From an uncultured Spirochaetaceae bacterium (GTDB lineage: Bacteria; Spirochaetota; Spirochaetia; Sphaerochaetales; Sphaerochaetaceae): a DNA stretch of 64,000 nt. The notes beneath the pieces are model-generated. The model did no database searches. It had not been told where the DNA came from and saw nothing but the letters and a program-made list of their open reading frames with translations. The position numbers and the translations under genes are program-made. Shown here piece by piece: positions 50,815 to 52,482 of this stretch (the stretch's first letter is position 1; the number at the start of each line of letters is the position of its first letter). The stretch lies in the NCBI GenBank assembly GCA_944389145.1, contig CALXLH010000003.1:1-64000 (forward strand), read 5' to 3'.

Positions 50815-51414
50815 TCAGTACTTATCCAGTCCGATGAGGAATATCTCGAAGGAATCGTCCCGTGAGGCCTTCGGCTTGAAGGCCTTTGCCTTCCTGAAGA
50901 GTCCTCTCATTGTCTTCAGGACCTCCTGCTCGCCGCCTCCCTGGAATATCTTTATCACGAGATTGCCATGCGGCTTGAGCTGCTCCTCTGACAGCATCAC
51001 GACCTGCTCCGCAAGGTATTCCGATCGCGTGGTATCCACGATCCTGTTGCCCGTCGTCATGGGAGCAGCGTCCGAGATTATCGCATCGTAAGGACCTTCC
51101 GCCACGAGCCTTGCCCTTATTTCCCTGGAGAATGCATCCCCTGTGATTTCCGTTACGGTAGGCGGTATCGGATCCAGCGATAGCGGATTGAGGTCGCAGG
51201 AGACGATCCTTCCTCTTCCCTTCAGGAGCTCGCGGTGCGTGTAGAGCGTCCAGGAGCCGGGAGCTGCGCCGACATCAAGCACCGTATCACCTGGCTTGAT
51301 TATCCTGTGAGCCGCATTGATCTCCTCAAGCTTATATACCGACCTGGCCGGATAGCCTTCGCTGTGTGCCTTCTTCGTGAAGAAGTCCGCCTTATCCCTT
51401 CTTGAAACAGCCAT
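50815..51414 (-). CDS. rlmE: 23S rRNA (uridine-2552-2'-O)-methyltransferase RlmE
   Basis: A 199-residue FtsJ/RrmJ methyltransferase. 'FFTKKAHSEGYPARSVYKLEEINAAHRII' holds the catalytic Lys, 'VLDVGAAPGSWTLYTHREL' binds SAM, 'AIISDAAPMTTGNR' has the Asp, and 'GNLVIKIFQGGG' the second Lys. It methylates U2552 in the A-loop of the 50S subunit and is often heat-inducible. The region upstream carries a small RNA terminator (51444-51492) on the same strand. Confidence 0.95.
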   Translation of the reverse strand: MAVSRRDKADFFTKKAHSEGYPARSVYKLEEINAAHRIIKPGDTVLDVGAAPGSWTLYTHRELLKGRGRIVSCDLNPLSLDPIPPTVTEITGDAFSREIRARLVAEGPYDAIISDAAPMTTGNRIVDTTRSEYLAEQVVMLSEEQLKPHGNLVIKIFQGGGEQEVLKTMRGLFRKAKAFKPKASRDDSFEIFLIGLDKY

Positions 51415-51443: not shown

Positions 51444-51492
51444 AAAAAAGACGCCGGACGGATGAAAATGGGGTGGGAGAGTCCGTCCGGCG
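51444..51492 (-). terminator. Intrinsic terminator of small RNA C
   Basis: CGCCGGACGGA (minus, 51492-51482) pairs perfectly with TCCGTCCGGCG (51462-51452), followed by TCTTTTTT (51451-51444). Confidence 0.85.
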
Positions 51493-51530
51493 AATGTTTC
51501 ACGCAAAGGAGGTGAAAACTGTTGCTCTTT
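51444..51530 (-). ncRNA. Candidate small RNA C: sigma-54 promoter, anti-SD loop
   Basis: A predicted 87-nt leftward RNA starting at 51530 with AAAGAGCAACAG. Its first hairpin (TTTCAC 51517-51512 with GTGAAA 51502-51497) exposes CTCCTTTGC in the loop. The stretch UCACCUCCUUU (51515-51505) is identical to the universal 3' end of 16S rRNA. The second hairpin is an 11-bp GC-rich terminator stem whose loop is C-rich (CTCCCACCCC). No open frame. It is paralogous to RNA B, sharing the promoter, the 5' end and the motif. Inferred role: pairing with Shine-Dalgarno sequences. Confidence 0.7.
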
Positions 51531-51541
51531 ACCTAGTATTG

Positions 51542-51556
51542 GCAATACCCGTGCCA
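51542..51556 (-). promoter_or_regulatory. Sigma-54 (-24/-12) promoter of small RNA C
   Basis: TGGCACGGGTATTGC (51556-51542, minus) matches the RpoN consensus TGGCACG-N4-TTGC, with GG and GC exactly 10 nt apart. The predicted +1 is 51530. Confidence 0.75.
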
Positions 51557-51593
51557 AAGTCGATAGGCTACACGATAACTACATCTGCTACAG

Positions 51594-51627
51594 AAAAAAA
51601 ACAAAGACAGCTGAGCAGCTGTCTTTG
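51594..51627 (-). terminator. Intrinsic terminator of small RNA B
   Basis: CAAAGACAGCT pairs with AGCTGTCTTTG (11 bp, 51627-51602, loop of 4), followed by eight T (51601-51594, minus). Confidence 0.9.
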
Positions 51628-51669
51628 AATACACTAAAAAGGAGGATTGTTGAAAAAACTGTTTGCTCT
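51594..51669 (-). ncRNA. Candidate small RNA B: sigma-54 promoter, anti-SD motif
   Basis: A predicted 76-nt leftward RNA starting at 51669 with AGAGCAAACAGTTTT, nearly the same 5' end as RNA C. CCTCCTTTTT (51645-51636) lies in what should be an unpaired linker, directly before the terminator hairpin. No Shine-Dalgarno or open frame on this strand. It lies 139 nt upstream of RNA C in the same direction, each with its own promoter and terminator, so the two look like a tandem duplication. Function in translation control is inferred. Confidence 0.7.
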
Positions 51670-51680
51670 ACACACCCTAT

Positions 51681-51695
51681 GCAGGAAGCGTGCCA
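51681..51695 (-). promoter_or_regulatory. Sigma-54 (-24/-12) promoter of small RNA B
   Basis: TGGCACGCTTCCTGC (51695-51681, minus) matches TGGCACG-N4-TTGC with one change (CTGC); GG and GC are exactly 10 nt apart. The predicted +1 is 51669. Confidence 0.72.
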
Positions 51696-51780
51696 ACTTC
51701 GTTTTCTGGTACAAATTGCCGCGTCTGCGATACTTTTCCTATAAGATTGCTGTGAAAAAATGTAACAGTGTGAAGATCTT

Positions 51781-51820: not shown

Positions 51821-51849
51821 TTGACCTCTGCCTTTGCTCTTTGTACCTT
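51821..51849 (+). promoter_or_regulatory. Promoter giving a leaderless rhomboid mRNA
   Basis: TTGACC (51821-51826), 17 nt, TACCTT (51844-51849), then 6 nt to ATG 51856. No Shine-Dalgarno. Confidence 0.5.
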
Positions 51850-51855
51850 TTGGTA

Positions 51856-52482
51856 ATGCGCAACAGCATCATAAACAGGCAGTTCAGATATACGTTTTCG
51901 AATGCGGCTGTAGGGATCATCGCGGCTAATGTCGTGGTGTTCGGATTGACGTATTTTCTCTTTCCTCGTCTGATGTACGTCTTCTCCATGATTCCCTCCA
52001 TGATCATATATAGGCATTGGTATTGGCAGTTCGTCACCTATATGTTCATGCATGGGGGCATCTGGCATCTCTTGTTCAACATGCTGGCGCTCTACATGTT
52101 CGGATCTCCTGTGGAGCGGAAGATCGGGACAAGGGAGTTCCTGCTTTTCTACTTCCTCGTGGGCGTGCTTTCCGGTATTGCCAGCTTCATCGTCTACTAT
52201 CTTACGGGACGTAATGCGATACTCCTTGGAGCCTCTGGAGCGATCTACGGGGTGCTTCTGCTGTTCTCCGTGTTCTTTCCGTCCGCGGTGGTCCTTCTAT
52301 TTGGCGTGATACCGATGCGCGCGCCGATGCTCGTGCTTCTTTACTTCTGCATAGAGTTCTTCGGCTCGATGCTCTCCTCTGGCGGGGTGGGGCATGCCAC
52401 GCATCTCTTCGGGCTTGTCTTCGCGCTTCTTTATGTCACCATCCGCATGAGGATCAATCCTCTCAGGGCCTGGGGGCTATAG
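51856..52482 (+). CDS. Rhomboid family intramembrane serine protease
   Basis: A 208-residue membrane protease with six predicted segments. 'HGGIWHLLFNMLALYMFGSPVER' carries the conserved HxxxN, 'ILLGASGAIYGVLLLF' the catalytic Ser (GASG), and 'GVGHATHLFGLVFALLY' the catalytic His. It cleaves membrane proteins within the bilayer; the substrate is unknown. ATG 51856 is chosen over a TTG at 51841, which lies inside the promoter. The end overlaps the convergent adenosine deaminase gene by 6 nt. Confidence 0.92.
   Translation: MRNSIINRQFRYTFSNAAVGIIAANVVVFGLTYFLFPRLMYVFSMIPSMIIYRHWYWQFVTYMFMHGGIWHLLFNMLALYMFGSPVERKIGTREFLLFYFLVGVLSGIASFIVYYLTGRNAILLGASGAIYGVLLLFSVFFPSAVVLLFGVIPMRAPMLVLLYFCIEFFGSMLSSGGVGHATHLFGLVFALLYVTIRMRINPLRAWGL

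Follow-up and report, generated by a model that had tools for sequence, protein, structure and literature searches.

Does the gap between rlmE and a divergent rhomboid gene in a Sphaerochaetaceae contig hold small RNA genes and, if so, how might they be controlled and on what might they act? Within the window, the whole 64-kb stretch of DNA that was analysed, 441 bp separate the rlmE start (51414) from the rhomboid ATG (51856), and a preliminary description had placed here two leftward units in a stretch free of genes, each with a sigma-54 promoter and the anti-Shine-Dalgarno sequence. Both units are present on the minus strand (51695-51594, unit A; 51556-51444, unit B), and no plausible gene was found inside the gap. 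The RpoN-type promoters are as described, with exactly 10 nt from GG to GC in each, the motif CCTCCTTT occurs in both units, and the intrinsic terminators have the reported 11-bp stem and run of T residues (Table 1). In the 2.13-Mb genome we counted 12 exact matches to the promoter pattern, compared with 7 to a reversed control; because the pattern is this rare, two such matches on one strand, 139 bp apart, are already unlikely by chance.

One claim stood only in part. The shared 5′ end had been set 12 nt from the promoter: AGAGCAA is common to the two units and the distance is 12 nt in A, but it is 13 nt in B (51528) and is not fixed in the family, where the -12 GC lies 11-24 nt from AGAGCAA, mostly 12 or 14. 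For unit B the sigma-54 rule puts +1 at 51530, and AGAGCAACAG begins at 51528. The second copy had also been said to match the 3′ tail of 16S rRNA, and UCACCUCCUUU (51515-51505, minus strand), an 11-nt stretch that includes the seed, does equal what we take to be the usual 3′ end, the comparison being with the general 16S tail and not with this genome's own 16S. Folding backs both terminators and, in B, the predicted hairpin whose loop holds the motif; the folding z-score for 51444-51533 is -3.2. Rfam release 15 gave no family at gathering score anywhere in the window (0 matches). Each unit is short and independent, ends in an intrinsic terminator and lacks an ORF, as would a trans-acting small RNA at the sequence level, the transcript being predicted.

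Table 1. Positions of the two small RNA units, their control elements and the flanking genes in the 64-kb window
Feature	Position	Strand	Basis
rlmE, FtsJ-family rRNA methyltransferase gene	50815..51414	-	PF01728 E=1.3e-41; downstream neighbour; synteny
Rhomboid-family membrane protease gene	51841..52482, likely ATG 51856	+	PF01694 E=6.2e-33; divergent upstream neighbour; synteny
Putative enhancer (UAS) CACTGTTACATTTTTTCACAGC for sigma-54 activator	51749..51770	-	Family motif cAgTGTGAAAatTTTTCACAcc; PWM
Sigma-54 -24/-12 promoter of RNA A, TGGCACGCTTCCTGC	51681..51695	-	Kept in 105 aligned copies; rpoN in genome
sRNA A, ~76 nt, predicted 5′ end AGAGCAAACAG from 51669	51594..51669	-	Promoter geometry, conserved 5′ end, terminator
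Anti-Shine-Dalgarno seed CCUCCUUU of RNA A (DNA CCTCCTTT)	51638..51645	-	Conserved core; predicted unpaired
Intrinsic terminator of RNA A, 11-bp stem CAAAGACAGCT/AGCTGTCTTTG + 8 T	51594..51627	-	Sequence, folding
Sigma-54 -24/-12 promoter of RNA B, TGGCACGGGTATTGC	51542..51556	-	Pattern; alignment of copies
sRNA B, ~87 nt; AGAGCAACAG from 51528, predicted +1 near 51530	51444..51530	-	Folding, conservation
Anti-Shine-Dalgarno seed CCUCCUUU of RNA B (DNA CCTCCTTT)	51505..51512	-	Direct reading; conserved
Seed hairpin of RNA B, UUUCAC/GUGAAA, CUCCUUU in loop	51497..51517	-	MFE; stem variants across family
Second conserved C-rich loop CUCUCCCACCCC in terminator hairpin of RNA B	51470..51481	-	Near-invariance in 29 B copies
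Intrinsic terminator hairpin of RNA B, CGCCGGACGGA/TCCGTCCGGCG, 11-bp stem + 6 T	51444..51492	-	Sequence, folding, covariation

Distribution and structure of the RNA family

Joint conservation of promoter, 5′ end and motif in relatives had been set as the test of the two units, and it was found well beyond the genus. A blastn search of the region against 40 relatives gave matches in 19, all within the genus, and a model of the promoter and 5′-end sequence matched 84 of the 92 genomes sampled from the contig's own GTDB family at E<=0.01 (81 of them at E<=1e-3 or better), including Sphaerochaeta, Pleomorphochaeta, Candidatus Ornithospirochaeta and relatives. The same A/B pair recurs in Candidatus Ornithospirochaeta species (L087, L101), and the contig itself is probably of that genus. 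Among cultured strains, Sphaerochaeta halotolerans 4-11 (L095) carries the RNA. Across 105 aligned divergent copies, TTGGCA, TGC, AGAGCAA, the U-run and CCUCCUU are retained; these copies were selected by promoter and AGAGCAA, so that the invariance of those two, including the GG-N10-GC spacing of the TGGCAC-N5-TTGC element in all 105, is partly by choice. Genomes usually carry one to three copies, and up to four in tandem. The four-copy case, in genome G275 (locus L208, G275:C1:2226000-2231000), has a separate promoter and a CTGTTACTTTTTTTCACAG-type enhancer for each tandem RNA.

A pattern scan of public genomes returned mostly Sphaerochaetales-type spirochaetes among the matches listed, and almost all of these listed spirochaete matches have a -24/-12 element upstream; copies retrieved without demanding the element mostly carry one too. 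The listed matches in Clostridia, Bacteroidales and similar groups are without the promoter, and most of those that we read look antisense to a Shine-Dalgarno sequence followed by a lysine-rich start. In L039, L047, L076, L077 and other Clostridia-type matches the pattern lies antisense to Shine-Dalgarno plus ATGAAAAAACTG starts. The lesson of these matches is that short anti-Shine-Dalgarno patterns are believable only together with the promoter.

Beyond the family, remote homologues extend to at least two other families of Spirochaetia: we found them in f17, f4 and, as one clear copy, f3. These forms have a different 5′ end (TGCAACTAG, ACAATGCAG) and retain TTTTTTCATACCTCC and the promoter, and those of f17 and f4 also retain the C-rich terminator loop. 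Among 296 genomes of the phylum there was no full-length match outside the RNAs' own family, nor, in the same sample, outside the class Spirochaetia. Weak matches elsewhere in the class and phylum, with E about 1e-3, were taken as chance; several were partial and lacked the promoter columns. The sequence observation is thus confirmed and had been understated by the preliminary description: RNAs A and B belong to a real and new family of predicted small RNAs, vertically inherited in Sphaerochaetaceae, and we found no anti-Shine-Dalgarno small RNA family for spirochaetes or Sphaerochaetaceae in the open-access literature. The family is nearly universal in the sampled Sphaerochaetaceae, a large group of spirochaetes of gut, rumen and environment, with the regulatory wiring of enhancer and sigma-54 promoter intact.

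The copies, of which 114 of 130 proved to have a terminator, fall into two subtypes. In subtype A the motif has no hairpin and is predicted to be simply unpaired; in the longer subtype B, CUCCUUU sits in a hairpin loop, so that the earlier placing of the motif on a loop in the second copy holds within that subtype. The seed has a mean predicted unpaired probability of 0.85 in A and B alike, and the C-rich loop one of 0.98. For the two-helix structure of B, 88.4% of cells pair across 29 divergent copies compared with 76.2% after shuffling and at most 49% when slid, the structure having been derived partly from the tested sequences, a bias in its favour relative to the slid version. Cells with double changes number 65, where 18.6 were expected from shuffling. 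Compensation was seen in all nine pairs of the terminator stem of B, and the core of its loop CUCUCCCACCCC is near-invariant in the 29 copies while the enclosing stem changes. Helix 1 is less variable, with 87% of cells paired, double changes at two pairs only, and the variants UUUUUCAUAC/GUGUGAAAAA, UUUUUCAC/GUGAAAAA and GUUUUUCAUGC/GUAUGAAAAAU. The CUCUCCCACCCC loop of RNA B is conserved as strongly as the anti-Shine-Dalgarno seed.

Sigma-54 promoters, enhancer and candidate activators

The proposed control by sigma-54 gains strength from an rpoN gene in the genome and from a conserved palindromic enhancer upstream of the promoters. An EM motif search of 84 non-redundant upstream regions converged on the palindrome cAgTGTGAAAatTTTTCACAcc, which is present in about 79 of these 84 independent regions, roughly 50-165 nt upstream of the promoter. 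A search for the simple palindrome GTGAA-N3-8-TTCAC gave matches in 28 of 132 upstream regions and in none of 411 controls. The scan of the window and of further loci of the same genome gave a single PWM match above 14, at 51749-51770, and by its position this one enhancer could serve both units. We regard TGTGAAAatTTTTCACA as a putative enhancer sequence for a sigma-54 activator. An exact 17-nt enhancer pattern gave three sites only in 14 genomes and is too strict for defining a regulon. In most f1 loci the gap that bears the enhancer is bordered by the rhomboid protease gene.

The genome holds activator-domain genes as well (four strong matches and one weak), so that, at the level of sequence, a -24/-12 element, an upstream palindrome, rpoN and activator genes, the features of a sigma-54-dependent gene, are all in place. 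The leading candidate for the activator of the small RNAs is the NtrC-type regulator of L154, which has a linked histidine kinase, a lead suggested by presence, as orthologs occur in all nine RNA-bearing genomes examined, including those of f17 and f4. PrpR_N-type and PspF-like activators were not detected in every RNA-bearing genome examined, and the enhancer motif was not found next to any activator gene. L157 (G000:C39) is a 348-aa ORF with the AAA+ domain of a sigma-54 activator and without a recognisable DNA-binding domain.

Elsewhere in the genome, exact or near-exact sigma-54 sites precede hsp20 (L010), an alternative sigma factor of the sigma-70 family (L009), an HTH protein (L007) and, next to a gene for a PspF-like activator (L156), two pspA genes. 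Together these sites look like a stress regulon; they are without the palindrome, and a different activator is therefore likely there.

Proposed Shine-Dalgarno pairing and alternative explanations

What the RNAs do is, in our view, quite probably best explained as a whole by sigma-54- and enhancer-activated small RNAs that act in trans and block translation by pairing with Shine-Dalgarno sequences. Each gene would be read from its own sigma-54 promoter to its own intrinsic terminator, most of them downstream of one palindromic enhancer, and with this arrangement the RNAs should not be made unless a sigma-54 activator protein has been turned on. The RNAs of ~75-100 nt would then expose CCUCCUUU, unpaired in A and in a hairpin loop in B, which would add a second C-rich loop. 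Pairing of CCUCCUUU with Shine-Dalgarno sequences, the likely mode of action, would block ribosome binding and probably hasten mRNA decay, and genes with the perfect 8-nt match (AAAGGAGG), here largely those for solute-binding proteins and permeases, would be hit hardest. Translation of many mRNAs would thus probably be shut off together, with those encoding nutrient-uptake proteins perhaps the main ones affected, and we infer, as had been proposed, that expression of A and B may be stress- or nutrient-induced.

Candidate targets were sought by pattern. AAAGGAGG-N3-11-ATG occurs 76 times in the genome and its reversed control 21 times; the target set comprised 57 strong-SD gene starts from the pattern search, and the background 213 genes from 264 kb. 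An N-terminal hydrophobic segment is encoded at 27 of the 57 AAAGGAGG starts with an ORF; among 212 other genes with a Shine-Dalgarno sequence the number is 39 (p=2e-5). Pfam assignments among 53 AAAGGAGG genes include SBP_bac_1 (6), DctP (4), BPD_transp_1 (4), DctM (2), TctC (2), NMT1_3 (2) and SSF (1), counts that are not additive as the solute-binding families overlap, and in a background of 112 genes no solute-binding or permease family reached 2 (for SBP_bac_1, 6/53 versus at most 1/112). The perfect AAAGGAGG starts, rich in solute-binding proteins and permeases, suggest a regulon; the enrichment is no proof of regulation, because strongly expressed uptake genes typically have a strong Shine-Dalgarno sequence in any case, and its strength may simply track expression. 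The solute-binding proteins of L218, L223, L247, L256, L258, L269 and L279-L283, all with perfect AAAGGAGG, have no obvious lipobox cysteine and signal peptides with A[GS]GS.E-like ends.

A role in cis is possible given the conserved synteny, since most f1 loci (L013-L152) have the order rhomboid ← sRNA(s) → rlmE, with rlmE directly downstream of the last copy. The units would then be attenuator-like leaders that control read-through into rlmE, CCUCCUUU masking or mimicking a Shine-Dalgarno sequence in cis. We consider this unlikely, as two to four tandem copies each have their own promoter and terminator, the loop sequences are conserved and the distance to rlmE is not, and several rumen lineages (e.g. 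L037, L053, L056, L091) have the RNA at sites where neither rlmE nor the rhomboid gene was detected close by. The location elsewhere in the rumen lineage and the four tandem copies of G275 argue for trans-acting genes at an ancestral site and not for an rlmE leader.

The 5′ region might alternatively be antisense to whole secretory-gene starts (SD+AUG+AAA-AAA-CTG), with specificity for MKKL-type proteins. Its reverse complement does read AAAGGAGG-UAUGAAAAAACUG, and where the same pattern matches outside the spirochaetes it appears to lie antisense to starts of this kind. Against this, no GGAG Shine-Dalgarno sequence in the genome is followed by a ATGAAAAAACTG start, and all 11 MKKL starts begin with AAG; beyond the Shine-Dalgarno sequence the RNAs pair hardly better than versions with shuffled 5′ parts, the advantage being very small (-0.43 +/- 0.18 kcal/mol; the mean rank was 14.2 of 30); and the UUUUUCAU run of B-type copies is explained by pairing with GUGUGAAAAA. 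We rejected this reading on these three grounds as very unlikely. Equally hard to sustain, and highly improbable, is a decoy that mimics the 16S 3′ tail and titrates a tail-binding protein or RNA instead of silencing mRNAs: the 11 nt of copy B and the invariance of the motif speak for it, but the family retains only CCUCCUU and not the preceding UCA of the tail (CAUACCUCC, CAACCUCC, CAUGCCUCC), and titration would demand very high abundance. Finally, short exact motifs such as CCTCCTTT are common, but a chance arrangement or non-functional repeat has practically no probability left and is refuted, because promoter, 5′ end, motif and terminator are conserved together across genera, with covarying stems and a shared enhancer.

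Comparison with known small RNAs

Silencing by Shine-Dalgarno pairing would place the spirochaete RNAs beside several alphaproteobacterial small RNAs. The ar14/cuckoo RNAs, as described in papers that cite their definition, have an ultraconserved CCUCC-type motif in hairpin loops with hypervariable stems, occur in multiple copies and are stress-linked, and ar14 itself has three hairpins, each with CCUCCUCCC (PMC10746234, PMC7143759). The likeness drawn earlier to these RNAs is apt as an analogy: the spirochaete family shares the anti-Shine-Dalgarno motif in a loop (in the B type), conserved loops on varying, covarying stems, multiple copies and transporter-rich candidate targets. Set against the same accounts, it has one CCUCCUUU seed, in a hairpin only in B, and a second loop, CUCUCCCACCCC, in the terminator hairpin, in place of the three hairpins with CCUCCUCCC; it was found only in Spirochaetia and not in alphaproteobacteria, and has no Rfam match. 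The spirochaete RNAs are therefore analogues and not members of ar14/cuckoo.

NfeR1 of Sinorhizobium meliloti, one of the ar14/cuckoo RNAs, is Hfq-independent and has a sigma-70 promoter, unlike the sigma-54 promoters and enhancer found here, and its targets, predicted and in some cases confirmed, are transporter mRNAs (PMC10746234, PMC7143759). AbcR1 and AbcR2 (ar15) of rhizobia and relatives are tandem siblings with three stem loops and unpaired CU-rich anti-Shine-Dalgarno motifs, bind Hfq, and have targets enriched in ABC transporter mRNAs (PMC7143759). The tandem sibling RNAs, unpaired motif and uptake-gene candidate targets of the spirochaetes resemble AbcR1/AbcR2, and the uptake-rich AAAGGAGG genes match the transporter-rich target lists of both NfeR1 and AbcR (PMC10746234, PMC7143759). 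Unlike the situation for Hfq-binding AbcR, Hfq (PF17209), which an Hfq-dependent small RNA would need in its host, had no match in any of 25 genomes, drawn from the RNAs' own genus and ten other families of the class, and did match in five control genomes. U-rich small RNAs are present despite the lack of an Hfq match in these 25 genomes.

Chances seem about even that the whole forms an Hfq-free riboregulon across the lineage, in which one sigma-54 enhancer-binding protein would drive a bank of RNAs mimicking the ribosomal tail and so shut down nutrient-uptake and other strong-SD proteins in envelope or nutrient stress, an independent invention of the alphaproteobacterial strategy wired to sigma-54. 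If true, multi-copy anti-Shine-Dalgarno RNAs would have arisen a second time, apparently independently, and one could ask what selects for regulators that look so unspecific. As the seed contains little besides anti-Shine-Dalgarno sequence, selective action on many matching leaders without Hfq becomes a testable question, and practical experiments are possible because cultured Sphaerochaeta strains, such as S. halotolerans 4-11, carry the RNA. New here are the enhancer in about 79 of 84 copies, the CUCCUUU loop in the longer subtype, the invariant CUCUCCCACCCC loop in a covarying stem, the conserved rhomboid/rlmE setting and the lack of an Hfq match.

The CrcZ small RNA is under sigma-54 control, and to our knowledge an anti-Shine-Dalgarno seed is not a defining trait of Qrr, GlmY/GlmZ or CrcZ. 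The Qrr and GlmY/GlmZ genes are driven by sigma-54 and enhancer-binding proteins, often as several siblings (PMC10162802, PMC3162934), and CrcZ is grouped with such RNAs for comparison (PMC4063720). Unlike these proteobacterial RNAs, with their other targets or protein partners, the spirochaete RNAs carry an anti-Shine-Dalgarno seed; like them, they are encoded by several sibling genes with a sigma-54 promoter and an enhancer.
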